Assembly: GCA_003050565.1 (NCBI GenBank)
Contig: PEBW01000001.1
Coordinates: 186,001-250,000 of the forward strand
Direction of reading: 5' to 3'
Length of the DNA: 64,000 nucleotides
From: Brockia lithotrophica
GTDB taxonomy: Bacteria; Bacillota; Bacilli; Thermicanales; DSM-22653
The notes under the pieces were generated by a model. That model was not told the DNA's origin and made no database searches. It worked only from the letters and a program-made list of their open reading frames with translations. Made by a program: the position numbers and the translations under genes. Below are positions 10,727-40,244 of the stretch, piece after piece; position 1 is the stretch's first letter, and each line of letters begins with the position of its first letter.

Positions 10727-12091
10727 TCATACGGCCGAAAAACGCTCGGCATACCGCCGAAGGTGTTCTTCGTCGGCGATGTCCTCGCGCAGGGAAAAGC
10801 CCGCCTCCCGAAACGGGGACGCCCACGCGTACGCGCGGCGGCGCGCTTCTTCCCAATCCTCGCCCAACCCCACCACCGTGAGGAGGCGACCGCCCTGGGA
10901 AACGAGGCGGGCATCGTGCGCACGGAGGACCCCGCGCCGGGCGCGCGCGAAGTCCTCCCCCTCTGCCGCGCGCACGTTGGCGTAGTATACACGAAGGAGG
11001 GGGGTATCCCCCCGGGCCACGGGGAGCGTCGGATCGGCGGGATAGGGAAGGGGAAGTCCCCGAACCGGAGCTTCCGGATAGCCGGGCGCGGCGACGACGA
11101 CGCCCACCGCCCGTTCCTCGCAAAAGCGGAGGGCGTCGGGACGAAGGCGGCCCTCGGCGAGCCCGGCGAAGACCGCGCCGAGATCTCCGGTAGCGCGGCT
11201 CAGGAGGATTTGCGCCTCTGGATCGCCCAAGCGCACGTTGAACTCGAGGACGTGCGGCCCTTCCGCCGTCCACATGAGTCCGAGGTAGAGAATCCCCCGG
11301 TACGAAATCCCCCGGCGTTCGAGAGACGCGAGGAGGGGATCGAGGATTTCCGCGCGAACGCGCGCCTCCGCCTCCGGGCCGTATCCCGGCAGCGGGGAAA
11401 ACCCCCCCATTCCGCCGGTGTTCGGCCCGACGTCCCCCGTCCCCAGGCGCTTGTAGTCGCGCGCGGGCGGCAGAAGAACCGCTTCCCCGTCGGCGACGAG
11501 GGCGTGTACGGTAAGCTCCACGCCCTCGAGAAAGCGTTCGACGACGACCCGGCTTCCGGCCTCGCCGAAGCGGCGGGCCTCGAGCATCTCCCCGAGGGCG
11601 GTCCGGGCCTCTCCCTCGTCGCCGGCGACGACGACGCCCTTCCCCTGCGCAAGTCCGTCGGCCTTGATCACGAGTGGATAGGGGCCGACGGCGAGGAGTT
11701 CGTCGGCGTCGGCCAGGCGCTCCACCACGCGAAACTCGGCCGTGGGAATCCCCGCCTCGCGCATGAGCTCTTTGGCGAACACCTTGCTCGCCTCGAGGCG
11801 GGCCCCTTCCCGTCCGGGACCCACCACGGGAATCCCGCGCGTGCGGAGAGCGTCGGCGAACCCGTGAGCCAACGGCTCTTCCGGACCGACGACGACGAGG
11901 TCGACGCGTTCCGCGCGAACGCGTTCGGCAATTTCCTCTGGATCGCTCCAAGGGATCCTCCACACGTCCCCGAGGACGCCCATGACATCCGTCCCCGGCG
12001 TAAAGCTCACGCGCCGGACGCTCGGCGAGCGAAGAAGGGCGACTCCCAGGGCGTACTCTCGACCACCGGACCCCACGACGAGCACGTGCAC
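10727..12091 (-). CDS. purD: Phosphoribosylamine-glycine ligase
   Basis: Second step of de novo purine synthesis: joins glycine to phosphoribosylamine with ATP. ATP-grasp enzyme. N-terminus reads VLVVGSGGREYALG (the family usually has GGREHAL, so His is Tyr here). Later motifs are GLAQGKGVVVA, VVERFLEGVELTVHAL, TGGMGGFSP and EFNVRLGDPEAQ. I place the start at the GTG at 12091, with GGGAGGTG six bases upstream; an in-frame GTG at 12100 lies inside that SD. 454 residues is slightly longer than usual (~420). Last pur gene of the cluster, 70 bases after purH. Confidence 0.94.
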   Translation of the reverse strand: MHVLVVGSGGREYALGVALLRSPSVRRVSFTPGTDVMGVLGDVWRIPWSDPEEIAERVRAERVDLVVVGPEEPLAHGFADALRTRGIPVVGPGREGARLEASKVFAKELMREAGIPTAEFRVVERLADADELLAVGPYPLVIKADGLAQGKGVVVAGDEGEARTALGEMLEARRFGEAGSRVVVERFLEGVELTVHALVADGEAVLLPPARDYKRLGTGDVGPNTGGMGGFSPLPGYGPEAEARVRAEILDPLLASLERRGISYRGILYLGLMWTAEGPHVLEFNVRLGDPEAQILLSRATGDLGAVFAGLAEGRLRPDALRFCEERAVGVVVAAPGYPEAPVRGLPLPYPADPTLPVARGDTPLLRVYYANVRAAEGEDFARARRGVLRAHDARLVSQGGRLLTVVGLGEDWEEARRRAYAWASPFREAGFSLREDIADEEHLRRYAERFSAV

Positions 12092-12161
12092 ACGGGCCAC
12101 CTCCCTGGCACCTCGCGATGAGGGTGCGCACGTTTCCCTATCGGGTTACCCCAATCCCGCA

Positions 12162-13871
12162 TCAGTGACGAAAGACGCGGACGTCCGTGAAGACCATGGC
12201 GATACCCGCCGCGTCGGCCGCCCGAATGACCTCCGAGTCGCGCACGGAACCGCCGGGCTGAACGATCGCCCGCACACCCGCGGCACCGGCGAGCTCTACG
12301 GTATCGGGAAAGGGCAGAAACCCGTCCGACGCGAGGACGGCCCCGCGGGCGCGCTCGCCTGCCTGGCGCAGGGCGATCTCCGCCGAACCCACGCGGTTGG
12401 GCTGCCCCGCCCCCACCCCTACCGTGACCCCGTCCCGGGCGAGGACGATGGCGTTCGACGTCACATGGGCGGACACCGTCCAGGCGAGGCGCACGCTCGG
12501 CCAGAGCTCTTCCGGAACCGGGTGGGCGCCCACGATCCGGAAGGACGGCGCGCGCCGTTCGCGCACGGAGACGAGGAGCCCCCCGCGGACGCTCCGAAGG
12601 TCGAGATCTTCCGCGGGGCGGAGGAACTCCCGAGGGTACACAAAGACGCGCAGGTTTTTCTTGCGCGTGAGGGGTTCGAGGAGCTCAGGGTCCGTCCCTT
12701 CCGGGAGGAGGACGACGTCGAGGAAGATTTCCGCCAGCGCGCGCACGAGCGCCTCGTCGGCGGGCCGGTTTACGGCCACGACTCCGCCGAAGATGGATAC
12801 GGGGTCGGCGTCGTGTGCCCGGCGGTAAGCCTGGAAGACGTCTGCGCCGATCGCCGCCGCCGCAGGCGACGCGTGTTTGAGGACCACCGCGGTCGGGGCG
12901 GAAAAGTCCGCTTCGAGGTCGGCGAGAAGGCGAAGGGCCCGTTCGATGTCGAGGTAGTTCGTGTAGGAGAGGGGCTTCCCGCTCAGGAGGCGAAGATCGG
13001 CCAACGAAGGTCCCGCGGCTCCGGCGAGGCGGAAAAACGCACCGCGCTGATGGGGGTTTTCGCCGTAGCGGAGCTCTTTCCCTTCCACGCCCCAAAAGGC
13101 GACCGCCCGAGGCAGGGCCGAAGAAGCCTCCGACGCTCCCCCACCCGGGGAAACCGTCGCCCCTCCGACGGCGAGAGCTTCTTCCCAAGGGGAAGGGGCG
13201 ATTCCCGCCCGTGCCTCCGCATCTTCCGAAAGGCCCCGGGCGTCCGACGCATCGGGGCCGTCCACGGGCGAAGCTTTTCCCGGTTCTTCGAAACGGCCCT
13301 CCCGAAAGGCGAAAGCGATCGCCAGATCGTAGAAGGCCGTGCGGCGGAACGCGCGTTCGGCGAGCGCGCGCCGCACGGCGAGGGCACGCTCCGGGGAAGC
13401 GTCCAACCCCTCGAGGGCGAGGGGGACGTCTGCAGGGGAAGAGACGACGAAGACGCGCGCGTGGGCTTTCGCCGCGGCGCGGAGGAGGGCGACGCCGCCG
13501 ACGTCGACGAGCTCGACGAGCTCTTCGCCGCGCAGGCCCCTGTCCCGCGCGTCTTCGAACGGGTAGAGGTCGACGACGACGAGGTCGAACGGTACCCCTC
13601 CCGCCGCCTCCACGGAAGAGAGGTCCCCGGGCGTAGGTCGCGCGAGGATCCCCGCAAACACGCGGGGGTGCAGCGTCTTTACGCGCCCTCCCAAGAGCTC
13701 GGAAAATCCGGTCAACGTGTCGAGGGAGACCACGGGAAGCCCGGCCTCCCGCAGGTAGGCCGCCGTACCCCCGGAAGCGTAGAGTTCCACCCCGCGGGCT
13801 GCCAGCTCGCGGGCAAAGGGCAGGTAGGGCGGCTTCGTGTAGAGGCTCATGAGCGCGCGGCGTACGGACAT
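12162..13871 (-). CDS. purH: Bifunctional AICAR transformylase / IMP cyclohydrolase
   Basis: Catalyses the last two steps to IMP. The N-terminal MGS-like domain (residues 1 to about 200) is the cyclohydrolase, with SGGTAAYLREAGLPV, TGFSELLGGRVKTLHP and DLYPFE. The C-terminal transformylase has RYGENPHQRGAFF and the catalytic Lys-His in KHASPAAAAIG. Most bacterial enzymes have KH-x-NPCG here; the form seen is closer to the animal-type KHVSPAGAA. The cyclohydrolase start is also divergent (LMSLYTKPPYLPFA where LLSVSDKTGIVEFA is common). 569 residues is longer than the usual ~512, with an acidic/Ser-rich insertion around residues 205-265. ATG at 13871 with AAGGAGG. Confidence 0.93.
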   Translation of the reverse strand: MSVRRALMSLYTKPPYLPFARELAARGVELYASGGTAAYLREAGLPVVSLDTLTGFSELLGGRVKTLHPRVFAGILARPTPGDLSSVEAAGGVPFDLVVVDLYPFEDARDRGLRGEELVELVDVGGVALLRAAAKAHARVFVVSSPADVPLALEGLDASPERALAVRRALAERAFRRTAFYDLAIAFAFREGRFEEPGKASPVDGPDASDARGLSEDAEARAGIAPSPWEEALAVGGATVSPGGGASEASSALPRAVAFWGVEGKELRYGENPHQRGAFFRLAGAAGPSLADLRLLSGKPLSYTNYLDIERALRLLADLEADFSAPTAVVLKHASPAAAAIGADVFQAYRRAHDADPVSIFGGVVAVNRPADEALVRALAEIFLDVVLLPEGTDPELLEPLTRKKNLRVFVYPREFLRPAEDLDLRSVRGGLLVSVRERRAPSFRIVGAHPVPEELWPSVRLAWTVSAHVTSNAIVLARDGVTVGVGAGQPNRVGSAEIALRQAGERARGAVLASDGFLPFPDTVELAGAAGVRAIVQPGGSVRDSEVIRAADAAGIAMVFTDVRVFRH

Positions 13872-13957
13872 GTCCGAACCTCCTTCTCCGAACCTCCCGC
13901 CAACGCCTTTCTCACGAAAGAACGGAATCGAGGACCGCGAAACGATCCAAACAACGG

Positions 13958-14632
13958 TTAAACCCCAGGTTCTCCTTCCTGCAAGAAGCGCACCCGCCTA
14001 CCCTCGAGGACGAGTCCTTCGCGGAGAATCCGGGAGAGCACAGCCGGGTACAGACGGTGCTCGACGCGCTTGATCCGTGCCGCCAGCGTCTTCGGAGTGT
14101 CCGTAGGTCGCACGTCCACGGAACGTTGGGCGACGATCGGACCTGTGTCCACGCCTTGGTCCACGAGGTGGACGGTCGTGCCGGTCACCTTGACACCGTA
14201 GGCGAGGGCTTGCCCGACGGCGTCCTTGCCTGGGAAGGCGGGAAGGAGCGCCGGATGAAGGTTGAGGATCCGCCAAGGGTAGGCGCCGAGGAGCGTAGGG
14301 CCCACGAGGCGCATGTACCCCGCGAGGACAAGCCACCGCGGGGCAAAAGGCTTCAAAAAGGCGAGGATTGCCTCCTCAAAGGCCGCCTTGTCGGGAAAGT
14401 CCCGAACCGACCGGGCGAAGACCTCGCGCCCCAGGCGGCGAAACTTCCGCACGACGGGTGCCTCGGGTCGGTCGCTCACGAGTGCGACGACGCGGTAGAC
14501 GCCTTCCCGGCGGACGAGTTGTACGGCGTTGGACCCCTCGCCCGAGGCGAACACGGCGACGGGTACCGGCTCCGCCCCAGGACGCCATTCCGGGGGGATC
14601 TCGAGGCGGTCGGCGTGTTCTTCTGCGGACAC
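13958..14632 (-). CDS. purN: Phosphoribosylglycinamide formyltransferase (10-formyl-THF dependent)
   Basis: Third step of purine synthesis: formylates GAR. The fold start is VPVAVFASGEGSNAVQLV. The active site has Asn and His in LNLHPALLPAFPGKDAV and the catalytic Asp in VDQGVDTGPIVAQ. The GTG at 14632 is preceded by GGGAGGGAGGAG. The product has about 22 extra N-terminal residues before the first strand, giving 224 residues against a usual ~195. Lies 86 bases before purH and 151 bases after purM; the purM-purN gap contains a tandem repeat. Confidence 0.94.
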   Translation of the reverse strand: MSAEEHADRLEIPPEWRPGAEPVPVAVFASGEGSNAVQLVRREGVYRVVALVSDRPEAPVVRKFRRLGREVFARSVRDFPDKAAFEEAILAFLKPFAPRWLVLAGYMRLVGPTLLGAYPWRILNLHPALLPAFPGKDAVGQALAYGVKVTGTTVHLVDQGVDTGPIVAQRSVDVRPTDTPKTLAARIKRVEHRLYPAVLSRILREGLVLEGRRVRFLQEGEPGV

Positions 14633-14670
14633 GGGCTCCTCCCTCCCTGGATTTCTCCTTCTCTACACCC

Positions 14671-14722
14671 CGCGTTGCCCGCAAACGGCGCGCGGCCGCG
14701 TTGCCCGCAACCGGCGCGCGGC
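14671..14722. repeat. Two-copy 26-bp tandem repeat between purM and purN
   Basis: Two adjacent 26-base units, 14671-14696 and 14697-14722, both beginning CGCGTTGCCCGCAA and ending GGCGCGCGGC. They differ at one position (A versus C). Each is very GC-rich and can fold on itself. It lies in the 151-base purM-purN gap. Confidence 0.85.
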
Positions 14723-14783
14723 GAGAAGACCGCCTCACGCAAACCTCGCTTCGATGTGAAAATGGCGCGGGCCGCGGAAATGT

Positions 14784-15845
14784 TCACGCGGGGAGGTGTC
14801 CGCCGTACCGGAAACGTACGGCGCCCCCTTCCCCGCCCTGGCCCTGTTCTACGAGGCGACCGAGGACGACCGGCTTTTCTCCGAGATCCTCAAGCGCCCG
14901 CCGCACGTCGCCGAGGCGTTCGGGGGCGACGACGAAGACGAAACCGATCCCCTGATTCCACACGGCATACGCCTCGCGGTCGTCGAGGTTTGCGGCCGCC
15001 TGCGCGCGCCGAAAGATTTCGGGAACTTCCCACGCCTCGACCGCGACTTCCGCCGCGAGCGTGGAGGGAAACACGCGTGCAAGGTTTTCGGGAAACCCCC
15101 CGCCGGTGATGTGCGCGGCGGCCTTGGCGCCCGCGGCAAAGGCCGCCGCGGCCTGGTGAACGTAGAGCCGCGTCGGGGTGAGGAGCTCTTCGGGGGTGAA
15201 GAGGTCCGGGTCGCGGGCGAGGAGGGCGCGAAGAAGGCTGTAGCCGTTTGCGTGAAACCCGGAACTCGCAAGGCCAAGAAGGAGGTCGCCGGCGGCCGGC
15301 GCCGGACGCGCGAGGGAGGCTCGGGGGGCGACGCCCACCGCAAACCCCGCAAGCTCGAGGGAGCCTTCCGGAAGCATTCCCGGAAGTTCGGCGGTTTCGC
15401 CCCCCAGGAGAACTGCCCCGACCTCACGAAGGGCGTCGACCATGCCCGCGATGAGGCGTTCGATCGCGTCGGGATCGAGGCGACCCATGGCTACGTAGTC
15501 GAGGAAGAAGAGCGGCTGTGCTCCTTCCGCCGCCAGGTCGTTCACGTTCATCGCCACGAGGTCCCAACCGGCAACTTCGAGGCGACCGTGGGCCTGGGCG
15601 AGAAGGAGCTTCGTCCCTACGCCGTCGGCCGAGGCGAAGAGCACGGGGTCGTCGAGCCCGTCCGGCAGGCGAATCGCGCCGGCAAAGGCACCGATTCCGC
15701 GCAAAACTTCCGGGCCGTGCGTGCCTCGGACGAGTTCGGCTACGCGTCGGACGACTTCCGCACCCCGATCGAGATCGACGCCGGCGCGGCGGTAGGCTTC
15801 GGCGTAACCCGACGCACCGGAACCCGGCTCGCGTGGCCGCTCCAT
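14784..15845 (-). CDS. purM: Phosphoribosylformylglycinamidine cyclo-ligase (AIR synthetase)
   Basis: Fifth step of purine synthesis: ATP-dependent closure of FGAM to AIR. Motifs: YAEAYRRAGVDLDRGAEVV, ADGVGTKLLLAQ, DLVAMNVNDLAAEGAQPLFF, LLGGETAELPGM, GLASSGFHANGYSLLR and HITGGGFPENLARVFP, in the order of the PurM/PurL superfamily. The ATG at 15845 follows GGAGG at good spacing; the much longer open frame upstream is a shadow of purF and purL. 353 residues, normal. 35 bases after purF. Confidence 0.95.
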   Translation of the reverse strand: MERPREPGSGASGYAEAYRRAGVDLDRGAEVVRRVAELVRGTHGPEVLRGIGAFAGAIRLPDGLDDPVLFASADGVGTKLLLAQAHGRLEVAGWDLVAMNVNDLAAEGAQPLFFLDYVAMGRLDPDAIERLIAGMVDALREVGAVLLGGETAELPGMLPEGSLELAGFAVGVAPRASLARPAPAAGDLLLGLASSGFHANGYSLLRALLARDPDLFTPEELLTPTRLYVHQAAAAFAAGAKAAAHITGGGFPENLARVFPSTLAAEVAVEAWEVPEIFRRAQAAANLDDREAYAVWNQGIGFVFVVAPERLGDVRRALEDLGEKPVVLGRLVEQGQGGEGGAVRFRYGGHLPA

Positions 15846-15880
15846 TGGTCGTACCTCCTTGGAATCCGGATCGCGCGCCT

Positions 15881-17221
15881 CTACCCGTCTCGGGGCACGA
15901 GGCAGGCCGTGCACACGCTCCCCCGGGGAAAGAGGGCGGCAAAGGTTTCGAAGTCGAGGTAGGCGAGGGAATCCGCACCGATGTGCGCGGCGAGTTCCCC
16001 GCGGGACATCACGCCCATGGGCGGCGTTTCGGGGCCGAAGAACCCGTAGACGCAAGGGGCGGTCACCGGAGGGGAGGCGATGCGGACGTGGACCGCGCGC
16101 GCCCCCGCGTCGCGCAGAAGCTTGAGGAGGCGCGCCGCCGTGGAGCCGTACACGAGCGAATCGTCCACGAGGACGAGGCGCTTCCCGTGCACGAGCTCGC
16201 GGACGAGGGCGAACTTGGCCTCGAGGACGGCATCCCGTTCCCCCTGGGCGAGGAGAAAGCTGCGGGGCGCGGCGGGGGACTTCACGAGCACCCCTTCGAG
16301 GGGAAGACCGAGGGTCTGAGCGTACCCGAGCGCCTGGGGAAAGGCCGTATCCGGGGCGTACACCACCATGTCCGCCTCTGCGGGCGCCCGGCGAGCCAAC
16401 TCCTCCCCCAGGCGCTTTCGCGCGGCGTACAGGCTCACGCCGAAGAGGCGGCTGTCGGGTCGGGAAACGTACAAGAGTTCGAAGGCGCACACGCCGCGGG
16501 CGAAGGAGTTCGCATCGCGCCGAGGCGCGGGCTCTTCCCCGCCCTCCGGCGTCCCGGGGAGGGGACGCGGAATGTAGCGCATTTCGCTTCCGTTCCACCG
16601 CCAGCGGCTCACCTGACCCGCCCGAACTTCGGAGACGGAAAATCCCAAGGCTTCCAAGGGAGACGTCTCGCTCGCCAGCGCCACGAGATCCCCCTTGCGC
16701 CCCACGAAGAGGGGGTAGACGCCGGTGGCGTCGCGAACCGCGGAAAGCCCGTCCCGCTCCACCATCACGGCCGCGTAGGGGGAAGGCAAGGCGGCAGGCC
16801 AGGGGCGGCCTGCAAGGACGGCGCGGACCCCCTCGGCCTCCTCGGGAGCCAGCGGCCCGAGGTAGGCGACGGCTCCTTCGCCGGACGCGACGTCCGAAGG
16901 CGAGACGTCGATCCACCCGCCCCCTTCGGCGAGCGCGAGCGCCAGAGCCCCCAGCGCGCCGCTCCCGAGGCGAACGGGGGAGGACTCCCCGATGCCTACG
17001 GCCACGCGGGGCCCTCCGTCTCGTCCGCGCTCCTCCGTTTCGCCTTCGGGTACGGAAACGCGGCGCTCGGGAGGGGTGAGCCCGAGGACGCGCCCGCCGC
17101 GGTGGAGGAGAGCGTGAACGGCCCGCGAGGCGAGGGATTGCACTTCTTCTTCGACCTTCGGTCCCCCCTTTCCTCCCCCGAGCGGGGGTAGGTAGAGGGC
17201 AAAGAGCCCCCCGCCTTTCAC
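15881..17221 (-). CDS. purF: PurF-like amidophosphoribosyltransferase with a dead glutaminase domain
   Basis: Homologous over its whole length to PurF, which makes phosphoribosylamine from PRPP and an ammonia source. The start is fixed by the GTGA overlap with purL. Where PurF has the mature N-terminal ECGVFGIW, this protein has GGGLFALY, so nucleophile Cys becomes Gly4; there is no Cys just upstream in frame. HRG is kept at residues 40-42, but the Arg of GHVRYAT, the HNGN oxyanion motif and the glutamine-binding Asp are not recognisable. In contrast all four Fe-S ligands are kept: Cys245 (GVCAFELLYVSRPDS), Cys390 (SPPVTAPC), Cys437 and Cys440 (CTAC). The PRPP motif is VDDSLVYGST (352-361; usual VDDSIVRGTT), and the flexible loop is changed to VKSPAAPRSF from IKNRYVGRTF. 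446 residues. It is either an ammonia-only enzyme or a decayed PurF. Confidence 0.85.
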   Translation of the reverse strand: MKGGGLFALYLPPLGGGKGGPKVEEEVQSLASRAVHALLHRGGRVLGLTPPERRVSVPEGETEERGRDGGPRVAVGIGESSPVRLGSGALGALALALAEGGGWIDVSPSDVASGEGAVAYLGPLAPEEAEGVRAVLAGRPWPAALPSPYAAVMVERDGLSAVRDATGVYPLFVGRKGDLVALASETSPLEALGFSVSEVRAGQVSRWRWNGSEMRYIPRPLPGTPEGGEEPAPRRDANSFARGVCAFELLYVSRPDSRLFGVSLYAARKRLGEELARRAPAEADMVVYAPDTAFPQALGYAQTLGLPLEGVLVKSPAAPRSFLLAQGERDAVLEAKFALVRELVHGKRLVLVDDSLVYGSTAARLLKLLRDAGARAVHVRIASPPVTAPCVYGFFGPETPPMGVMSRGELAAHIGADSLAYLDFETFAALFPRGSVCTACLVPRDG

Positions 17222-19659
17222 GGCGCTTCCCCCTCCCGATAAGAATCTGCGCCGTGCGCCGAAGAAGCGGCTCCTCCCTCCGAAGGCTCTCCCCGGAAAG
17301 GCGGGCGGGAAACGAGGCCGACAAGGGCGAGCTCGCGGGGGAGCCAAGACCCGATTTCCGAAGGCCCTACGCGGACGGGCATTCCCTCGACTTCTACGCC
17401 TTCTCGCCGCACCTCCCCCAAGGAGAAGACCCGGAGTCCTTCGCCGCACGCCCACGCGAGAAAGTCTTTTGCGATCGCCCGCTTTACGACGAACACGCCG
17501 TAGGCCCCTTCGCCGAAAAGGAGGGCAAGACTCTCCGCAGGCGCACGGTCGAGTTCGCCGAGGGCGACACCGCTCGCCGAAGAGGCGGCCATCTGGAGAA
17601 GGGTGCCGAGAGCTCCGCCTTCGCGGACGGCGCGCGCCGCAAGAATTCCGCGGCGGAGGGAGGTGTCGGCGTAGAGGCGCACGAGCGCGTTGCGCAGTCG
17701 TCCCTCTCCCTCGCGCTGCGGCGCCAGGGGAATCCGGGCCAGGCGCGCCAGAGCTTCTCCCGCCCGGGCGAAGAGTTCCTCTGCCCCGTAAGCCGCAGCG
17801 AAGAAAGGGAGAAGGCGCAGGGGCCCGCTCCCTACGAGAAAGACGGGGGCCGCTTCGTCCACGGCCTCTTCGTCCCACGTTCCGGGAACTGCGGAGTGCG
17901 GCGTAGAACCGAAGGCCACGAGAAGCGGGGTGGGGAGAATCCCCCGTTCCGCCGTCTCGTTGTACAGGCTCGCGTTGCCGCTCACGAAAGGCACCGAGGC
18001 GGCGCGCGCGGCGGCGGAAAACCCGAGGACCACCTCGACGAGCGAGCGGTACACGTCGTCCCGCTCCGGCGAACCGAAGTTCAGGTTGTCCGAAAGCCCG
18101 AGGGGAGTAAGGCCGCGCACCGCGAGGGAGCGGAGGACGGCAAAGACGGCCATCTGCGCCGCCCCGTAGGCGTCCAACGCGAAGGCGTTCCCCTCTCCGG
18201 CTCCGCTCATTCCCCACACGGCGGGGCCTTCAGTCCCTACGCCCACGAGGACCACGTCGTCAAAGACCCACGGCGAAGGGTCTCCTCCCTCCTGCGAGGG
18301 GTCCCCCACCTTCTCCGCGCCGTTCGGCCGCACGTTCCCTCCTTTCCGGACGAGGCGCCGTGGAAAGCGCGGCGAGGTGAGGTAGCGTCGGAGGAGATCC
18401 CGAACCGTCGAAGCGTCGAGGCGTACGAGGCCCAGCCGTTCGAGGAGCTCGCGCTCTTCGGGGAAGACGAGTTCGGTCTCCGCCCGTTCGCGCCGCGCGG
18501 CGGGGGAGCCTTGCGGCACGCCCTCCCGCGTCTCTTCTGCCGCCCGGACGGAGGCGACCACGTCTTCGCGCACGACCGGTACGACGTCCGTAAGCTCCGC
18601 CAAGGGTACCTCCGCAAGGAGGTCCTCGCCTCGACGGACGGAAAACGTACCGGACGACACGAGGTGCCCCACGACGGCCGCCGGCACCTGAAACGCGCGG
18701 AAGTGGGTGAGGAGGTCTTCGGCGTGTGCCGGATCGGCTACGACGAGAACCCTTTCTTGGGTTTCCGCGAGGAGGAGCACCTCCGGAGGGAATTCCCGCA
18801 GACGGGGGAAGCGCTCGAGGTCGAGGACCACGCCGCCCGGTCCGCGACTCGCGAGCTCGGCGGCCGAACCCGCTACACCTCCCGCCCCCATGTCCTGTAC
18901 GGCGACGACCCACCCGCGTCGGGCGGCGGCGAGCAAGGCGTCCATCACGCGCCGACCCATCCGAGGATCTGCCGGGGGGACGAGAGGAGGAGCGTCGGAA
19001 CTCCCTTCCGCTACGGGGGGGAGTACTTCCTCGGAGTCGAAGGCGCGCGAAGCAAAGGCCGCCGCTTCGTACCCCGCCCCGTCCACGGGACGGCCTGCGT
19101 AGACGAGCACGTCCCCGTCCCGGCCACCGCGTGCGGAAAGACGGGGGCCTACGATTTCGCCCAGGGCAAAGACGTTTACGACGGGGTTTCCCGCGTAGGA
19201 AGCGTCCACGGCGTACTCTACGTACGCCCCATCACCTGCGCCGAATTCGGCGACGTAATCCGCAAAGCCCCGGACGAGCGTGCGCGTGAACTCCACGTCC
19301 TCCGCCACGTGCACAGGCCCTACGCGGAGGAGCGCCGCAGCGAGTCGCGGCTCTGCCCCCATCGTAAAGACGTCCCGGTACAGGCCGCCGATCCCCGTGG
19401 CCGACCCGGCATAGGGGTCGACCTTGGACGGGTGGTTGTGGCTCTCGATCTTAAACGCCGCCGCTCCGCCGTCTGCGGCTACCACCCCTGCGCCCTCGCC
19501 CGGCCCGGCGAGAACCTGAGGGCCCTCGCGGGGGAGAAGGGCGAGAAGGCGTTTCGTGTGGCGGTAGCTCATGTGCTCGGAAGTGAGGATCTCCTTGAGG
19601 GCGGAGGCGATCCTCGCGGCGGTCGCTCCCTCCCGCGGAGTGCGCTGCGTCCCTGCCAT
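17218..19659 (-). CDS. purL: FGAM synthase large subunit (small-type PurL)
   Basis: Converts FGAR to FGAM with ATP and ammonia; in Bacillus-type systems ammonia is channelled from PurQ with the help of PurS. Motifs: LTSEHMSYRHTKRLL (usual SEHCSYK, Cys is Met here), PGEGAGVV, FKIESHNHPS, GGLYRDVFTMGA, VQDMGAGGVAGSAAEL, SDNLNFGSPE and VSGNASLYNET. 813 residues against about 740 in Bacillus. ATG at 19659 with GGGAGG upstream. It follows purC by 65 bases, exactly where purS and purQ lie in Bacillus; neither is present. It overlaps purF by 4 bases. Confidence 0.95.
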   Translation of the reverse strand: MAGTQRTPREGATAARIASALKEILTSEHMSYRHTKRLLALLPREGPQVLAGPGEGAGVVAADGGAAAFKIESHNHPSKVDPYAGSATGIGGLYRDVFTMGAEPRLAAALLRVGPVHVAEDVEFTRTLVRGFADYVAEFGAGDGAYVEYAVDASYAGNPVVNVFALGEIVGPRLSARGGRDGDVLVYAGRPVDGAGYEAAAFASRAFDSEEVLPPVAEGSSDAPPLVPPADPRMGRRVMDALLAAARRGWVVAVQDMGAGGVAGSAAELASRGPGGVVLDLERFPRLREFPPEVLLLAETQERVLVVADPAHAEDLLTHFRAFQVPAAVVGHLVSSGTFSVRRGEDLLAEVPLAELTDVVPVVREDVVASVRAAEETREGVPQGSPAARRERAETELVFPEERELLERLGLVRLDASTVRDLLRRYLTSPRFPRRLVRKGGNVRPNGAEKVGDPSQEGGDPSPWVFDDVVLVGVGTEGPAVWGMSGAGEGNAFALDAYGAAQMAVFAVLRSLAVRGLTPLGLSDNLNFGSPERDDVYRSLVEVVLGFSAAARAASVPFVSGNASLYNETAERGILPTPLLVAFGSTPHSAVPGTWDEEAVDEAAPVFLVGSGPLRLLPFFAAAYGAEELFARAGEALARLARIPLAPQREGEGRLRNALVRLYADTSLRRGILAARAVREGGALGTLLQMAASSASGVALGELDRAPAESLALLFGEGAYGVFVVKRAIAKDFLAWACGEGLRVFSLGEVRREGVEVEGMPVRVGPSEIGSWLPRELALVGLVSRPPFRGEPSEGGAASSAHGADSYREGEAP

Positions 19660-19724
19660 CCTCGTCGTCCCTCCCGTGGGTTTCGTTCCCGGAGCTCGTC
19701 TACCTCGAGCACCGCCCCGCCTCC

Positions 19725-20504
19725 CTAAGGTGAGGCGAATTCGGGAAACCGTTCGGCCAGGCGCCGGTAGACAAAGGCGTACCCTTCGAGGAGGTCGCCC
19801 ATGTCCCGGCGGAAGCGGTCTTTGTCCAGCCGCTCCCCGTCCTTCGTCCAAATGCGTATGGAATCGGGGGAGAGTTCGTCGGCGAGGACGATCTCTCCTT
19901 CGGAAGTTTCCCCGTACTCGAACTTCACGTCCACGAGGATGAGCTCGACGGCGGCAAAGATTTCTCGGAGCGCCTCCGCGGCGCGCCTCCCTTCGTCCTT
20001 GAGGTACGCGACGACTTCCGGCGACGCGAGACCGAGGAGGGCGACGTGATCATCCGTAAGCAGGGGATCGCCGAGCGCATCCGACTTGTAGTACAGCTCC
20101 ACGAGCGGGAAAGGCAGGGCCCGCCCCTCCGGTATTCCCAAGCGGCGGCTCAGAGACCCCGTGGCGAGGAAGCGTACGACGACCTCCAGAGGGATGATGC
20201 GGACGCGGCGCACGAGGTGCTCCGCCGGCGCGAGTTCGCGCAGGAAGTGCGTCCGGATCCCCTTGGAAGCCAGGGCGCGGAAGAGAAGCGCGCTCGTCCG
20301 GGCGGCGAGCTCTCCCTTCCCCGGAAATTCCCGGCGCTTCGCGCCGTCCCCCGCCGTCACGGCGTCGGTGAAGACGACGCGCACGCGTTCGGGATCGTCC
20401 GTGGCGTAGACCTTCTTGCTCTTTCCTGCGTAGAGGAGGGTTCCGGAAAGGGCGGACCCGCTAGGCTCTGAGTTTCCGGTGTGAAGGGGGGGCTGGGTGT
20501 CCAT
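19725..20504 (-). CDS. purC: SAICAR synthetase
   Basis: Condenses CAIR with aspartate using ATP. Motifs: LYAGKSKKVYATDD, TDAVTAGDGAKR, RTHFLRE, IPLEVVVRFLATGSLSRR, ELYYKSDALGDPL and LVDVKFEYG, DELSPDSIRIW. The ATG at 20504 follows GGGAGGG; 259 residues with a ~15-residue N-terminal extension. The upstream open frame is a shadow of purB. Lies 44 bases after purB. Confidence 0.95.
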   Translation of the reverse strand: MDTQPPLHTGNSEPSGSALSGTLLYAGKSKKVYATDDPERVRVVFTDAVTAGDGAKRREFPGKGELAARTSALLFRALASKGIRTHFLRELAPAEHLVRRVRIIPLEVVVRFLATGSLSRRLGIPEGRALPFPLVELYYKSDALGDPLLTDDHVALLGLASPEVVAYLKDEGRRAAEALREIFAAVELILVDVKFEYGETSEGEIVLADELSPDSIRIWTKDGERLDKDRFRRDMGDLLEGYAFVYRRLAERFPEFASP

Positions 20505-20548
20505 TGCATTCCCTCCCAGAGTGCGACTTTCGGTCGGACGGGGGACCC

Positions 20549-21904
20549 CTACGCATCCCCATCCGCAAACTTTGGACCCAAAACGCGGCGGTACCGCTCC
20601 GCTTCGTGGCGGAGGAAGTGCCCCACGAGGGCGTCGAAAAAGCGCTCTTCCGCATCCGCCTCGCTTCCCGAGGCGACCGTGGGAAAGGCGCGCTCCACCG
20701 CCGAGCGAAGCTCGGGGTCCTCGAGGATGCGCCGCAGAAAAGAGGGCGGACCCTCGAGGGCGCGAAAGGCGAGTTCCTGAAGTCGCGCGTACGCATCCTC
20801 GCGCCGAAACCCTTGGGCGACGAGGAGGTCGAGGAGGAGGGATGAGGCGAAGAGCCCGCCCGTCCGCCGCAGGTTGTCCCGCATGCGCGCGGGGTCGACC
20901 CTGAGGTGCGCGAGAAGCTCGCGCGTGCGCCAGAGCATGTAGTGGAGAACCGTCGTCGCGTCGGGGAAGATCACGCGTTCCACGGAGGAGTGGGAGATGT
21001 CCCGTTCGTGCCAAAGGGGGACGTTTTCGAACGCGGCGAGCATGTAACCCCGGAGGAGACGCGCTAGGCCCGAGACGTTTTCAAAGCCCACGGGGTTCCG
21101 CTTGTGCGGCATCGCCGAGGAACCTTTCTGGCCGGGGGCAAACCCTTCCTCGACCTCTTCCACTTCGCTTCGCGCGAGGTGGCGCATCTCCACGGCGAGG
21201 TGTTCGAGGGTGGTGCCCAGAAGCGCGAGGGCGGCGAGGTACTCGGCAAAGGTATCGCGCGGGAGAACCTGTGTCGCCGCGGGTGCCGGCTCAAGGCCGA
21301 GGCGGTGCAAGGCCGCCTCTTCGATTTCCGGGGGAAGGTGGGAGAACGTGCCCACGGGCCCGGCGATCTTACCCCGCGCCGCACGCCGTGCCGCTGCCCG
21401 CAGGCGCTCTTCGCCGCGGCGGAGTTCGTCGTAAAAGCCGAGGAGCTTGAGACCAAAGGTCGTCGGCTCCGCCGCCTTCCCGTGGGTACGGCCGAGGACG
21501 GGAACGCCGCGGTAGGCGAGGGACATGTCCCGCAGGAGGTGCAAAAGACGGGAGAGCTCGGCGAGGAGGAGGTCGGAAGCCTCCCGGAGGAGAAGCGCCC
21601 ACGCCGTGTCCACGACGTCGGCACTCGTAAGCCCGTAGTGTACCCACCGCCCGGCGGGACCGACTTGCTCGGCGACGTGTTCGACAAAGGCGATCGTGTC
21701 GTGGCGCGTGCGCGCCTCGATCTCCGCTATGCGCGCAGGGTCGATGCGCACTCCCTGCTTGAGGGCGGCGAGGTCTTCGGCCGGGACGACGCCCGCCTCG
21801 GCGAGCGCTTCGAGCACGGCAAGCTCCACCTGCCACCACGCGTGAAATCGGTTTTCTTCGGACCAGAGGCGCGCCATCTCCGGCCGCGTGTAGCGCGCGA
21901 TCAC
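20549..21904 (-). CDS. purB: Adenylosuccinate lyase
   Basis: Removes fumarate from SAICAR and from adenylosuccinate. N-terminus IARYTRPEMARLWSEENRF and the fumarase/ASL signature GSSAMPHKRNP are typical, as are TSADVVDTA and RTHGKAAEPTTFG. 451 residues against a usual ~430. The GTG at 21904 follows GGGAGG with short spacing but gives the expected N-terminus. Lies 45 bases after purE, leaving no room for purK. Confidence 0.96.
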   Translation of the reverse strand: MIARYTRPEMARLWSEENRFHAWWQVELAVLEALAEAGVVPAEDLAALKQGVRIDPARIAEIEARTRHDTIAFVEHVAEQVGPAGRWVHYGLTSADVVDTAWALLLREASDLLLAELSRLLHLLRDMSLAYRGVPVLGRTHGKAAEPTTFGLKLLGFYDELRRGEERLRAAARRAARGKIAGPVGTFSHLPPEIEEAALHRLGLEPAPAATQVLPRDTFAEYLAALALLGTTLEHLAVEMRHLARSEVEEVEEGFAPGQKGSSAMPHKRNPVGFENVSGLARLLRGYMLAAFENVPLWHERDISHSSVERVIFPDATTVLHYMLWRTRELLAHLRVDPARMRDNLRRTGGLFASSLLLDLLVAQGFRREDAYARLQELAFRALEGPPSFLRRILEDPELRSAVERAFPTVASGSEADAEERFFDALVGHFLRHEAERYRRVLGPKFADGDA

Positions 21905-21949
21905 CTTCCTCCCGCCTTTCCCAAGGAATTTCGGACACCGGACGCCCGC

Positions 21950-22462
21950 CTAGCCTTCGCCCGGCGGTTCCGCCTCCACCTCGCGCCGCAGGTTGCGGTC
22001 GAGGGCGCGGATTTCGTCGCGCCGCGCCGCACGGTGCGAGCGAAGCCGTGCGGCGAGTTCGGGGTCTTCTAGGGCGAGGATGTGCAGGGCGAGGTAGGCG
22101 GCATTTTCTCCGGCGTTTACCCCCACGGTGGCCACGGGAACGCCCGGGGGCATCTGGGCGATGGACAAGAGCGCGTCTACGCCGTGGAGAGGACCCACGG
22201 CGAGGGGGAGACCGATCACGGGAAGGACGGTTTGGCCCGCAACCACCCCCGGGAGGTGCGCCGCAAGTCCCGCGGCGGCGATGACTACACGCACCCCGCT
22301 CTGCTCGGCCTCGCGGACGATCGCGAGGACGTCTTCGAGATTTCGGTGAGCGGAGGCGATCCGGATGTCGCTCGGTTCGCCGAAGCGGGCCAGGACGTCG
22401 AGAAGCGGCCGAACGCGCTCGCGGTCCGAAGCGCTGCCCAAGATTACCAGAACACGCGCCAA
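21950..22462 (-). CDS. purE: AIR carboxylase / N5-CAIR mutase catalytic subunit
   Basis: Makes CAIR. Motifs: LVILGSASDRERV, IASAHRNLEDVL, AAAGLAAHLPGVVAG, TVLPVIGLPL, GVDALLSIAQMPPGVPVATVG and GENAAYLALHIL. Class I enzymes use N5-CAIR made by PurK; class II enzymes use AIR and CO2 directly. SAHR resembles class I (class II has SAHK), but no purK lies here and the following TP is NL. TTG start at 22462, with GGAGGG and GGAGG just upstream. First gene of the pur cluster. Confidence 0.93.
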   Translation of the reverse strand: MARVLVILGSASDRERVRPLLDVLARFGEPSDIRIASAHRNLEDVLAIVREAEQSGVRVVIAAAGLAAHLPGVVAGQTVLPVIGLPLAVGPLHGVDALLSIAQMPPGVPVATVGVNAGENAAYLALHILALEDPELAARLRSHRAARRDEIRALDRNLRREVEAEPPGEG

Positions 22463-23265: not shown

Positions 23266-24588
23266 TTACGGTACGAGAAAGGCAAAGTACAGGAGAAACG
23301 CTACCCCGAGGGCCCAGAGGAGGGGATGCACATCCCGAGCCTTGCCCCGGACGAGCTTGAGGACGGGATAGAGGATCACGCCGGCGGCTATGCCGTTCAT
23401 GATGCTCGTCGTCAGTGGCATGAGGATCAGCGTGAAGAACGCCGGCACCGCCTCGTCCCACTCGTCCCACCGGATCTTGCGCACGCCCCTGGTCATGAGC
23501 ACACCGACGACGATGAGCGCCGGCGCGGTCACGGAAGGGGTGATCACGCCGAGGAGGGGGGCAAAAAAGAGGCTCAGAAGGAAGAGGACGGCGACGACGA
23601 CGGCCGTGAGTCCCGTGCGTCCCCCGGCGGCGACGCCGGCAGCCGACTCGATGTAGGAAGTCGTCGAGGACGTCCCCAAAAGCGCCCCGGCGAGGATCGC
23701 CGAAGCGTCGGCGATGAGAGCGCGGCCGCCCCCCTTGAGCTTCCCGTGTTCCAAAAGGCCGGCTTCCTCCCCGACGGCGACGAGCGTTCCCGTTGCGTCG
23801 AAGAAGTCCACGAAGAAGATCGTGAGGACGACGGCGAGGAAGGAAGCCGTGTGCGTCCAAAGCCCGGAAAAGTCGAGCTTGAGGAAAGTCGGGGCGAGGG
23901 AGGGTACGGCACCGACCACGTCGCCGATCCCCCGCGGGGCCGGGATCACCCCCGTGAGAATCCCCACCGCCGCCGTGAGGACCATGCCCCAAAAGACGGC
24001 CCCCCGCACCTCTCGGGCGTAAAGGAGGAGTGTCGCCGCAAGACCGAAGAGCGTGAGGAGCGCCTCCGGGCGGTGGAGTTCGCCGAGGACGGGAACGTTG
24101 GCTCCCGAGGCTACGGTAACCAAGCCTCCATTCCGAAGGCCGATGAAGGCGATGAAGAGGCCGATCCCCGCCGTCGTCGCGAACTTCATCCCTTCCGGGA
24201 TGGCGGCGATGATCGCCTCCCGAAGTCCGGTGAGCGTGAGGAGGAGGAAAAGTGACCCGGAGACAAACACCGCCCCTAGGGCGACGGGCCAGGGGATGTG
24301 CATCGTCCCTACGACCGTGTAGGCGAAAAAGGCGAGAAGGCCCATCCCCGGCGCCTGAGCCACGGGAAAATTCGCGTACAGACCCATGATGAGCGTACCG
24401 ACGGCGGCGGCGAGGGCCGTGGCGACGAAGACGCTTTCCCGCGGCATTCCCGCCTCGCCGAGCACCTGGGGGACGACGAAGAGGACATAGGCCATGGAGA
24501 GAAAGGTCGTGAGTCCGGCGAGCACTTCGCGGGAAACCGTCGTCCCGCGCTCGCGCAAGGAAAAGAAGCGCTCCAGGACAGAAGACAA
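23266..24588 (-). CDS. pbuG: NCS2-family purine permease (PbuG/AzgA type)
   Basis: Membrane importer of hypoxanthine, guanine or adenine. Signature features: REVLAGLTTFLSMAYVLFV near the N-terminus, QAPGMGLLAFFAYT (the substrate-site GMG segment), IPEGMKFATTAGIGLFIAF, FVDFFDATGTLVAVGEEAG and GTSSTTSYIESAAGVAAGGRTGL. About 12-13 membrane segments over 440 residues. TTG start at 24588, with GAGGGG six bases upstream. It follows guaA as in Bacillus, so purine salvage is next to GMP synthesis. No purine riboswitch core was found in the 103-base guaA-pbuG gap. Confidence 0.93.
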   Translation of the reverse strand: MSSVLERFFSLRERGTTVSREVLAGLTTFLSMAYVLFVVPQVLGEAGMPRESVFVATALAAAVGTLIMGLYANFPVAQAPGMGLLAFFAYTVVGTMHIPWPVALGAVFVSGSLFLLLTLTGLREAIIAAIPEGMKFATTAGIGLFIAFIGLRNGGLVTVASGANVPVLGELHRPEALLTLFGLAATLLLYAREVRGAVFWGMVLTAAVGILTGVIPAPRGIGDVVGAVPSLAPTFLKLDFSGLWTHTASFLAVVLTIFFVDFFDATGTLVAVGEEAGLLEHGKLKGGGRALIADASAILAGALLGTSSTTSYIESAAGVAAGGRTGLTAVVVAVLFLLSLFFAPLLGVITPSVTAPALIVVGVLMTRGVRKIRWDEWDEAVPAFFTLILMPLTTSIMNGIAAGVILYPVLKLVRGKARDVHPLLWALGVAFLLYFAFLVP

Positions 24589-24691: not shown

Positions 24692-26002
24692 TCACTCCCA
24701 CTCGATCGTCCCCGGAGGTTTGTCCGTGACGTCGTAAACGACGCGGGCGACGGCGGGGAGTTCGGCCGTGAGCCGGTGAGCGAGTCTGCGCAGGAGCTCG
24801 TAGGGAAGTTCGGCCGCGCGGGCGGACATCGCCTCCTCGGAAACGACGGCACGGATGGCGACGACCTCCCCTTCCCGCCGCCGTCCGTCCTTCGCCCCCA
24901 CGGTGCGGACGCCAGGAAGCACGGCGAAGTACTGCCAAAGGGTGGGGGCCACGCCCGATGCGCCGATCTCCTCGCGCACGATGCGATCTGCCTCCCGGAG
25001 GAGCTCCAGCCGCTCCGCGGTGACTTCGCCGACGACGCGCACGGCGAGGCCGGGGCCGGGAAAGGGCTGGCGCTCCACGAGGGAAGCGGGAAAACCCAGG
25101 TGGCGGGCGATCTCCCGAACCTCGTCCTTGAGAAGCAGGCGCAGAGGTTCGACGAGCGTAAACGACACGCGTTCGGGTAGCCCTCCCACGTTGTGGTGCG
25201 CCTTGACCCCGCCGCGCCCTACGCTCTCGATGAGGTCGGAATAGACCGTACCCTGCACGAGGTACGCGACGTCCGCGATGCCGGCGACTTCTTGCTCGAA
25301 GACGCGGATGAACGTCTCCCCTACGGCGCGGCGTTTGGCCTCGGGATCGGCGAGGCCGCGGAGCGCCGCGAGGAAGGTATCCCGCGCGTCCACGCGGCGC
25401 ACGGGAAGGCCGAGGATTTTCGCCAACGATGCGGGAACTTCCTCCGCTTCGCCCGCGCGCAAGAGGCCGTGGTCGACAAACAAGGGTACGAGGAGATCCC
25501 CAAGGGCCCGGGCAACGAGGACAGCGGCCACCGCCGAATCGAGTCCCCCGGAAAGGGCGACGACGGCCCGACCTTTCTCGAGGCGTGCGGTGAGCTCCCC
25601 GACGCAGCGTTCTGCAAACCCGAATGGCGTGTAGGCCGAGTCGCCGCCGACGAGTTCGCGCAGGGCGGCGTGAAGGCGGGCGAACCCTTCGTCGTCGGAA
25701 AACGAGACAAAGGCGTTCTCCCGCGGGCCAGGGGAAAGCGCCTCCCCGTCCGGAGAAACCGCCCCTTCTTCCCACAACGTGGGGACCCCCGCGGCGCGGT
25801 AGCGGGAGAAAAGCTCGCGTTCTTCCGGTGACCAAAAGCCTTCCGCGGTGCGAGGAAGTACGAGCGCGGCGGGTAGGTCGTCGCGCTCCCCCGGAAGCGG
25901 AAGCTCCGCGTAGATCCCCGACCGGCGCAGACGGCGAAGTAGGCGTTCGTCGGCGGAAAAGACGGCTACCCACGGGCGGAAGCGGCAGGCGATGAGGGAC
26001 AT
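24692..26002 (-). CDS. guaA: GMP synthase with truncated, catalytically dead amidotransferase domain
   Basis: Converts XMP to GMP. The C-terminal two-thirds is intact: ATP-pyrophosphatase loop ALSGGLDSAVAA (SGGLDS at 151-156), FVDHGLLRAGEAEEV, LVQGTVYSDLIES, KAHHNVGGLPE, RQPFPGPGLAVRV, and C-terminal KPPGTIEWE. The N-terminal class I amidotransferase domain, normally ~190 residues, is reduced to about 95. It still aligns with the first strands and with the IPVL strand before the nucleophile (VPTL at 73-76), but GICYGMQ is replaced by WEEGAVSP, and the His-Glu part (FHPE) is missing. 436 residues against ~513. ATG at 26002 follows AAGGAG, so this is not a start error. It should be able to use ammonia only. 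Follows the transglutaminase gene by 30 bases. Confidence 0.92.
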   Translation of the reverse strand: MSLIACRFRPWVAVFSADERLLRRLRRSGIYAELPLPGERDDLPAALVLPRTAEGFWSPEERELFSRYRAAGVPTLWEEGAVSPDGEALSPGPRENAFVSFSDDEGFARLHAALRELVGGDSAYTPFGFAERCVGELTARLEKGRAVVALSGGLDSAVAAVLVARALGDLLVPLFVDHGLLRAGEAEEVPASLAKILGLPVRRVDARDTFLAALRGLADPEAKRRAVGETFIRVFEQEVAGIADVAYLVQGTVYSDLIESVGRGGVKAHHNVGGLPERVSFTLVEPLRLLLKDEVREIARHLGFPASLVERQPFPGPGLAVRVVGEVTAERLELLREADRIVREEIGASGVAPTLWQYFAVLPGVRTVGAKDGRRREGEVVAIRAVVSEEAMSARAAELPYELLRRLAHRLTAELPAVARVVYDVTDKPPGTIEWE

Positions 26003-37979: not shown

Positions 37980-39116
37980 TCACCCCCGTAGGACGCGGGC
38001 GAGTCGCGGCCCGAGTTGTGTGAGGACCTCGTAGGCGATCGTCCCCAGTCGGTCGGCGACTTCCCACGGCGAAATGGATTCGGTCCCCTGCGTTCCGAGA
38101 AAGACGACGCTGTCGCCCACGGAAGCCTCCGGTACGTCGGTCACGTCGACGAACAGGGCGTCCATGCTCACGCGACCCACGATGGGTACGCGTCGGCCCC
38201 GCACGAGTGCCTCTCCGCGCCCGCCTCCGAGCGCCCGGAAGATCCCATCTCCGTACCCCAAAGGCACGACGGCGAGACGCGTAGGTCGGCGTGCCTCGAA
38301 GCCGCCGCCGTATCCCGCCGTTTCCCCGGGGGCGAGTAGGTGGAGTTGGGCGATCGGTGCCGCAAGCCGAAGAACGGGGCGCAAAAAGGCAAAGGAAGAC
38401 GCGATGCGCGGTGAGGGGGGAACGCCGTACAGGGAAATCCCCAAACGGACGAGTTCGTAGCTCCGGTCGGGGAAGCGGACGAACCCCGCGCTGTTGTTTA
38501 CGTGGCGCAAGGGGGGCGTGAGCCCTTCCGCATCCAAACGCGCGAGCAGGCGGGCAAACCGTTCGTGCTGCCGCTCGGCATCGTCTACATCCGGTTCGTC
38601 GGCCCGGGCCAGGTGCGTGTAGATCCCCTCCACCTCGACCTTGGGTACCTCGCGCAGGACGCGGAGCACGTCGACGACCTCTTCCTCCTGGGCAATCCCC
38701 CAGCGGTGCATCCCCGTGTCCACCTTCACGTGGACCTTGAGGCGGGGAAGGCTCGACTTTAGGGACGTGCGCAGCCGCGGGACGAAGGCCGGATCGAACA
38801 CGGTGACCGCAATCCCCTGGGCTTGGGCGTCGGGAAGGCAATCGGCGTCCACGGGTCCGAGGACGAGGATGGGCGTGTCCACCCCGAGGGTCCGGATCTC
38901 GAGCGCTTCGCTCAGGGTGGCCACGGCAAAGTAGGACACGCCGATTTCCGCAAGCAAAGGGGCGACCTGGCGAACGCCGTGGCCGTAAGCGTTTGCCTTG
39001 ACGACCGCCATGATTCCCGACGACCGCGGAAGTAGGCCCGTGAGAGCGAGGACATTGTGGCGCAGGGCATCCGCATCGAGTTCTATGCGCGAGGCACGAC
39101 AGGTCCGAGGATCCAC
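37980..39116 (-). CDS. alr: Alanine racemase
   Basis: PLP enzyme making D-alanine for peptidoglycan. N-terminus ASRIELDADALRHNVLAL, PLP lysine in VVKANAYGHG, VKVDTGMHRWG, and the second catalytic Tyr in AGYGGGFEARRP; C-terminal VGRVSMDALFVDVTDVP is typical. 378 residues. GTG at 39116 with GAGGAGGGG. Its TGA stop is in frame with tsaE just downstream. Separated from ydcC by a terminator, so it likely has its own promoter. Confidence 0.95.
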   Translation of the reverse strand: MDPRTCRASRIELDADALRHNVLALTGLLPRSSGIMAVVKANAYGHGVRQVAPLLAEIGVSYFAVATLSEALEIRTLGVDTPILVLGPVDADCLPDAQAQGIAVTVFDPAFVPRLRTSLKSSLPRLKVHVKVDTGMHRWGIAQEEEVVDVLRVLREVPKVEVEGIYTHLARADEPDVDDAERQHERFARLLARLDAEGLTPPLRHVNNSAGFVRFPDRSYELVRLGISLYGVPPSPRIASSFAFLRPVLRLAAPIAQLHLLAPGETAGYGGGFEARRPTRLAVVPLGYGDGIFRALGGGRGEALVRGRRVPIVGRVSMDALFVDVTDVPEASVGDSVVFLGTQGTESISPWEVADRLGTIAYEVLTQLGPRLARVLRG

Positions 39117-39155
39117 ACCGCTCCCCTCCTCGTCCCCATCATCTTACCCGACGCG

Positions 39156-39185
39156 AAAAGGGGAGGCAAGAAGACCTGCCTCCCC
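39156..39185 (-). terminator. Terminator after ydcC
   Basis: Minus strand: perfect 9-bp stem GGGGAGGCA / TGCCTCCCC with an 8-base loop, followed by TTTTC, 40 bases past the ydcC stop and before alr. Confidence 0.85.
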
Positions 39186-39224
39186 GACAAATTCCCTGCA
39201 CACCTGCGTCCCCGGTACGTTTGC

Positions 39225-40244
39225 CTACTTGCGCGGAAGGAAGATAGACTGGGCGACGGCAACGAGTTCTTCTTCTGGCGCGTCCGTGCTCATGAGGCGG
39301 ACGTCAAGACCGCGGTAGGTGAAGCGGAGGATCCGCAAGTCGTCGCTCCGCGTGAGTCCTCCCCACGTGAAGAAGAGGTCGACGGGCACCCCGTCTTGGG
39401 CGGTCACCGTGAGCTCCCGCGCCGGCGAAACGGTGAGGGTAAAGCTCCGGCTTCCCCCGTAGCTCACGGTGAGGGTGGGAACGCCGTCGTCGTAGGTAAG
39501 CTGCGATCCCTTTCGCACGACTCCCTCCGGGAGGTACGTAGGTTCGACGCCCATGAGGTCCTGGGCGCTCTGCGCCGCCGTGCCCGCCTGCGAAGTCGGG
39601 CCCTGCCCGAACTGCTTCTCCACGGCCTCCCTCCGGAAGTCCTCGGGCGAAAGCGTCGGATCCCAGGAAAACCCCTCGACGACGAAACTTGCAAGCGTCT
39701 GGCCTTCGGAATCCAAGACGTCTACCTGCTTGGGAGCCAGGGTCTCGCGGTCGAAGCGGACGACTTGCTGGGAGAGGAGGCGGTTGGGGGCGCGAGCCTT
39801 GACGCGAAAGACGTACGTCCCGTTCTCTACCTCCATCGCCCTGCCTTCGTCGGCGCGGACGCTCTCGACGAGGGATTCGAGGAGGTAGATCTGCCCCCCT
39901 TCTCCCGGCCAACGGCTCTGAAAGCGGAAGGTCTTTTTGAGTTCGGGCGCGAAGATAAACACGCCCTCCTCGTTTTTCAAGACGACCTGCCGGGTCTCGT
40001 CCTTCTGTCCGAGGATCTCCACCCGGTAATACGAAGGCTTAAGGTGGGCGACGCGCACGCGGTACGCGACGGGCTCCCCGCCCGTCTTGAGCGTGAGCGT
40101 CCCCGTGGTTTCGTACGCCTTAGCCTCCTCCGCGCGCTTGGCAATCCTCCCGACGACGTCTTCCGGACGATCGGATGCGCGACAACCCGCAACGACGAGC
40201 AGGAGAAGCGTGGCCAAGACCCCGAGGATGTACCCTCGCCGCAC
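39225..40244 (-). CDS. YdcC-like lipoprotein (LolA-type sorting-protein fold, sporulation-associated)
   Basis: Lipoprotein with lipobox VVAGC, Cys21. The mature part resembles the LolA/LppX beta-fold: KAYETTGTLTLKTGGEPVAY, YYRVEILGQKDETRQVVLKN and GVFIFAPELKKTFRFQS are the usual opening strands, and a later SYGGSRSFTLTVSPA strand pair follows. The acpS-ydcC-alr order is the Bacillus order, supporting the YdcC name. The role is uncertain; relatives have been linked to sporulation and germination. 339 residues. Confidence 0.82.
   Translation of the reverse strand: MRRGYILGVLATLLLLVVAGCRASDRPEDVVGRIAKRAEEAKAYETTGTLTLKTGGEPVAYRVRVAHLKPSYYRVEILGQKDETRQVVLKNEEGVFIFAPELKKTFRFQSRWPGEGGQIYLLESLVESVRADEGRAMEVENGTYVFRVKARAPNRLLSQQVVRFDRETLAPKQVDVLDSEGQTLASFVVEGFSWDPTLSPEDFRREAVEKQFGQGPTSQAGTAAQSAQDLMGVEPTYLPEGVVRKGSQLTYDDGVPTLTVSYGGSRSFTLTVSPARELTVTAQDGVPVDLFFTWGGLTRSDDLRILRFTYRGLDVRLMSTDAPEEELVAVAQSIFLPRK

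Follow-up and report, generated by a model that had tools for sequence, protein, structure and literature searches.

A purine biosynthesis operon without purS and purQ in Brockia lithotrophica and its probable use of ammonia in place of glutamine

A close described counterpart of the system reported here is the PurSQL complex, a small-type FGAM synthetase known from B. subtilis and T. maritima (3d54). The PurL protein encoded in the 64,000-nucleotide stretch of Brockia lithotrophica DNA analysed in this work (the window) shares with that complex the synthase domain, the fold, most catalytic motifs and the position in the operon. However, the window system includes neither PurS nor PurQ, 42 of 140 conserved PurL columns are changed, and the cut-offs of curated PurL families are failed. 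In general, PurL, HisF, TrpE, CarB, PyrG and GuaA are able to use ammonia. PurF of E. coli is reported to keep its ammonia activity when the glutaminase Cys is absent (PMC3261824). The window features are as follows.

10727-12100, minus strand, purD (assigned by eye and from matches in relatives)
12162-13871, minus strand, purH (by eye and match to relatives)
13958-14632, minus strand, purN (by eye and match to relatives)
14784-15845, minus strand, purM (by eye and match to relatives)
15881-17221, minus strand, purF, 446 aa, degenerate glutaminase domain (no catalytic Cys, no GHVRY motif) next to a retained phosphoribosyltransferase half
17218-19659, minus strand, purL, 813 aa, a stand-alone FGAM synthetase from a diverged clade specific to the family (its only Pfam domains are AIRS and AIRS_C)
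19660-19724, no strand, purC-purL spacer, the purS-purQ position in Bacilli (from ORFs and gene order in 11/11 readable Bacilli loci)
19725-20504, minus strand, purC (by eye and match to relatives)
20549-21904, minus strand, purB (by eye and match to relatives)
21950-22462, minus strand, purE (AIRC domain)
23266-24588, minus strand, NCS2-type xanthine/uracil permease within the pur-guaA cluster (PF00860)
24692-26002, minus strand, guaA, 436 aa, GATase remnant with intact ATP-PPase and C-terminal domain (from domains and profile)
39075-39458, no strand, empty site of the glutamine package (the stretch flanks the insertion on both sides in genome G001)
52619-53353, minus strand, nagB, glucosamine-6-P deaminase (TIGR00502, 279.5 bits against a cut-off of 236.9)

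The operon is read from the minus strand in the order purE, purB, purC, spacer, purL, purF, purM, purN, purH, purD, with purF overlapping purL by 4 bp and all reading frames open. The end of purC at 19725 and the start of purL at 19659 are separated by 65 bp, in which no gene remnant was found. A preliminary description of this DNA had stated that purS and purQ are missing from here, their Bacillus-type position, with the flanking gene order kept, and the ORFs and the relatives bear this out. Both genes lie between purC and purL in all 11 Bacilli loci in which the four genes could be read (10 named Paenibacillus, Neobacillus and Metabacillus loci and that of genome G005; in two other Bacillota loci, L021 and L047, purL alone was seen), and PurS is present in 90 of 101 neighbourhood genomes. 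Eight more genomes lacking PurS were seen within the class, besides the family. The pur operon (10727-22462) includes purE, but a purK gene was not noticed in it.

The whole-genome search that the preliminary description had proposed placed neither gene elsewhere. As judged by profile searches of the window's own genome (G000; 1,687,502 bp in 12 contigs, 97.07% complete), PurS (PF02700) and PurQ (PF13507) have no match in this assembly, the control genomes being positive in 12/14 and 14/14 cases, respectively. The best tblastn hit for PurS in the window had an E value of 0.56. Together with the Pfam domains of PurL, to which no PurS or PurQ domain is fused, this rules out both fusion into PurL and survival as a remnant. 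An assembly break at the gap, raised in the same description as a way in which the claim could fail, is likewise ruled out by the independent assembly of G001 from the same genus, in which the purC-purL junction has a 44-bp spacer and the operon is collinear (82-95% identity).

A purL gene linked to purC and not preceded by purS-purQ was found in 5/5 family genomes compared (G000 to G004). In G004, the spacer is 91 bp and purB and purC are fused; G002 has the fused purBC ahead of purL; and in G003 the spacer, of about 200 bp, lies at a contig end. The fused purB-purC gene encodes about 720 aa in one frame, both in G002 (L098 7269-9443) and in G004 (L099 15910-18069), whereas G000, G001 and G003 have separate genes. 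With all five genomes sharing the arrangement, the loss of purS-purQ is no local accident. Nor does it stand alone, as the other amidotransferases described below show. The 'precise loss' of the preliminary description is correct as to the absence itself but incomplete, as the loss is common to the five family genomes and many glutaminase functions have been lost in parallel.

In G000, PurF retains neither the catalytic Cys (also absent in G001 and G003) nor the GHVRY motif but keeps the phosphoribosyltransferase loop. Its profile score is 191.6 bits against a cut-off of 350, with the match restricted to profile positions 158-427, and the AF2 model has very low confidence over most of residues 50-114 and is confident across most of the phosphoribosyltransferase half. 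The GATase domain of GuaA is reduced to a remnant, and both the nucleophile Cys and the His of PyrG are replaced by Tyr; the core PyrG of G002, G003 and G004 has Gly in place of the Cys. Only two class I GATase matches were found in G000, the dead PyrG and a Peptidase_C26 hydrolase, and the two class II matches are AsnB-like proteins, of which AsnB1 begins with MSG for MCG (Cys to Ser) and AsnB2 is without the N-terminus. CarA, HisH and TrpG/PabA had no match in G000, and CarB, HisF and TrpE stand in operons without these partners. NadE is of the short ammonia type (250 aa, NadE domain alone). GlmS, which is not known to use ammonia, also had no match in the G000 genome; NagB is a candidate replacement, presumably run in reverse with ammonia.

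No match to glutamine synthetase (PF00120) was found in G000, G002 and G003, an absence subject to MAG completeness, and the enzyme is present in 388 of 398 class genomes. Seven further class genomes that are at least 90% complete had no match (G046, G175, G258, G267, G285, G345 and G399), four of them belonging to one genus (g73). GdhA domains were identified in G000 (L158 5159-6535). This gdhA gene is near an AsnB-like gene without the glutaminase N-terminus (L158 1506-6535, contig G000:C6), and the two are a possible ammonia-assimilation pair.

We consider it probable that purine synthesis by this operon draws on free ammonia and belongs to a family-wide core metabolism that does without glutamine. 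Lacking PurS and PurQ, PurL would convert FGAR to FGAM using NH3 from solution, and PurF with its dead glutaminase domain would take ammonia for the first step. Across the five family genomes, the classical glutamine amidotransferases tested have lost their glutaminase subunit, domain or nucleophile; the remaining synthase parts would work with ammonia, and nitrogen would enter via glutamate dehydrogenase and ammonia. Life at high ammonia may have been the trigger: an ancestor amply supplied with ammonia could have lost glutamine synthetase and then the use of every glutaminase, leaving the synthases to take ammonia directly. The two habitat papers searched contain no statement on glutamine.

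Genomes G001 and G004, which represent different genera, carry the same glutamine-free core as G000 and, in addition, a second gene set of the glutamine type. By gene names mostly assigned by eye, this package includes glnA, glutamine-dependent nadE, purL-purQ-purS, full guaA, glmS, asnB, hisH-hisF, a DapL-like aminotransferase gene, gltB, dapF, pabAB, purF, carAB, pdxST, pyrG, trpEG and purA, and in G004 additionally murT-gatD. The purS and purQ genes of G001 and G004 thus sit beside a second, canonical purL in an acquired package, and are therefore not the lost originals. Both genomes have nine class I GATase matches, of which seven are on package contigs; outside the package are a dead PyrG in each, a Peptidase_C26-like protein in G001 and one more match in G004. 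The package also accounts for three of the six class II matches in G001 and for three of the four in G004.

Between G001 and G004, some 41 kb of package DNA can be aligned at 84-94%, whereas the core DNA compared aligns in short pieces only, at 71-91%. Similarly, 12 package proteins are 89-99% identical, compared with 44-60% for six core proteins. As the package is far more alike than the core between these genera, it moved horizontally. Its GC content is below that of the core in both genomes (54-62% against 64-70% in G001). In G001, the core sequence of contig C3 breaks off at window position 39458, and contig C5 takes it up again at window position 39075, such that 384 bp are duplicated either side of the insertion; the window is uninterrupted there and represents the empty site. 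As contigs C5 and C7 of G001 start with an identical 179 bp, the order of the package contigs is not settled. Around the package contigs, fragments of IS607/OrfB-like transposases lie at and close to the ends of contigs (G001 C7-C11; L159-L161 and L240-L242).

Vertical inheritance of the package within Bacilli is unsupported, as its PurL copies are placed with cyanobacterial PurL (SH-aLRT 96), away from those of G005 and Bacillaceae, in a phylogeny built from this one gene by a quick method. Location on a known plasmid was rejected, with 20 kb of package DNA giving no match in 72,556 plasmid records. A contaminant shared by G001 and G004 is judged unlikely, given that the package DNA is 84-94% and not fully identical, differs in GC and is joined to the core on G001 contig C3.

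G000 looks like a MAG, matching the published MAG of B. lithotrophica AL31, and G001 and G004 are probably isolates; hence, the package may be unbinned in G000. AL31 would then carry glutamine synthetase, a second purSQL and the rest of the package, kept out of the MAG by its deviating base composition. The presence of the package in the isolate-like G001 and G004, its absence from G000, G002 and G003, and the low GC recorded for it in G001 fit this explanation, but the window runs without interruption through the site occupied in G001. Furthermore, the glutaminase losses affect native operons and the very enzymes, in G001 and G004 too, and are therefore no effect of binning. We regard such an artefact as somewhat unlikely, and an unbinned package would alter the claim on the organism but not that on the operon or the core enzymes.

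Between G000 and G001, dN/dS was 0.03-0.21 in all 16 core genes compared (0.19 for PurL). The values for the GATase part and the synthase part were 0.28 and 0.10 in PurF, 0.20 and 0.11 in GuaA, 0.055 and 0.013 in PyrG, and 0.20 and 0.11 in AsnB1. The values show purifying selection on the trimmed enzymes, and the faster change of the GATase parts fits synthases that would be in use with glutaminase parts that would be unneeded. It is improbable, then, that the core pur genes and the other ammonia-type enzymes are decaying relics in a cell that lives on purine uptake or on package enzymes. That explanation would account for the very long PurL branches and for the NCS2 permease at 23266-24588, but it is opposed by the low dN/dS, by the open frames of the operon and by the description of the species as chemolithoautotrophic (PMC5928048).

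Two proteins are exceptions to the losses in G000. The amidase signature of GatA, a part of GatCAB, is intact, and so is the Cys of a Peptidase_C26 protein encoded behind a lysA-like gene (L156 9373-10056, contig G000:C4). Matching Peptidase_C26 proteins adjoin the same lysA-like gene in G001 and G002. Either exception, having kept its catalytic residues, could in principle act in trans as the glutaminase that provides PurL and the remaining synthases with ammonia. However, G000 has no glutamine synthetase match as a source of glutamine, the Peptidase_C26 protein scores best as a hydrolase family and is encoded near lysA and scpAB-like genes, and we know of no precedent for one glutaminase serving ten unrelated synthases. 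We therefore give this explanation very little weight. Both proteins do count against synthesis with ammonia, the Peptidase_C26 protein by its intact Cys and GatA because an intact amidase needs an amide donor; asparagine or ammonia could fill this role.

The window PurL scored 377.1 bits against a cut-off of 648 and 353.3 against 525.75 in two curated PurL families. It retains the SEH and KIESHNHPS motifs, and the best matches of its AF2 model (mean pLDDT 73.7) are the solved PurL structures 3viu and 2hs3. Among the 140 columns with at least 95% conservation across 75 canonical PurLs, 98 are kept in G000, 100 in G001, 106 in G002 and 107 in G004 (the partial sequence of G003 was left out), and 17 are altered in all four. 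In comparison, 131 are kept in each of the two second-copy PurLs (G001 and G004), and all 140 in the PurL of G005. In a tree of 83 rows, the five core PurLs were split with full support from the 78 others, which rules out an ordinary Bacillus-type PurL; the core branches are very long, so that their inner placing is unsure, and the G003 sequence is partial. The small-type PurL of the preliminary description is thus replaced by a diverged, family-specific clade below the curated cut-offs. Given the 42 lost columns and the failed cut-offs, activity of PurL is not certain. That PurL has changed function and the operon yields a specialised purine-like product would suit such divergence and the failed equivalog cut-offs, but is scarcely credible, as G000 has no other purL and this one is collinear with guaA and the genes of the entire IMP pathway.

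Purine synthesis with free ammonia remains the preferred reading. A broader scenario, for which we see an even chance, is that a family of free-living thermophiles abandoned glutamine as a nitrogen currency, with neither glutamine synthetase nor a working glutaminase among the classical amidotransferases of the core and with NagB reversed to replace GlmS, and that a mobile package of at least about 40 kb, bearing glutamine synthetase together with an almost complete amidotransferase set, moved between genera and reinstated glutamine metabolism in some members, where both systems are now side by side. Glutamine is treated as a near universal nitrogen carrier in free-living bacteria. In the open-access literature searched, neither a core metabolism free of glutaminases nor a glutamine package of this kind was found described. 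If the scenario is true, purine, pyrimidine, histidine, tryptophan, NAD, asparagine and amino-sugar synthesis would run on ammonia, and the whole glutaminase layer would be dispensable. The family would also provide a natural set of ammonia-only enzymes and be predicted to be insensitive to glutamine analogues, and the package would be a natural experiment in which a metabolism with a single nitrogen currency regains another in one step. As cultured strains are described for both genera, the claim is directly testable.

Single elements of this metabolism have counterparts elsewhere. The short ammonia-dependent NadE is a known family and, as in Brockia (250 aa), consists of the NadE domain alone; it is known as a single enzyme, whereas in Brockia it is part of a set. 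Like Brockia, the ant endosymbiont Blochmannia vafer is reported to have no glutamine synthetase, but it is a host-dependent symbiont and Brockia a chemolithoautotroph (PMC3017870, the main text of which does not use the word amidotransferase; PMC5928048). The high-ammonia syntrophs Syntrophaceticus schinkii, reported to be without an ammonium transporter, and Tepidanaerobacter acetatoxydans are also said to have glutamate dehydrogenase and no glutamine synthetase, in a source that, as far as consulted, does not mention their amidotransferases (PMC5113046). Archaeal PurF' proteins, which are PurF-like, are without the glutaminase Cys and are proposed to use ammonia, resemble the PurF of Brockia (PMC3261824). 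In that report the loss is described for PurF-like proteins, whereas in Brockia it spans the tested core amidotransferases of one genome.
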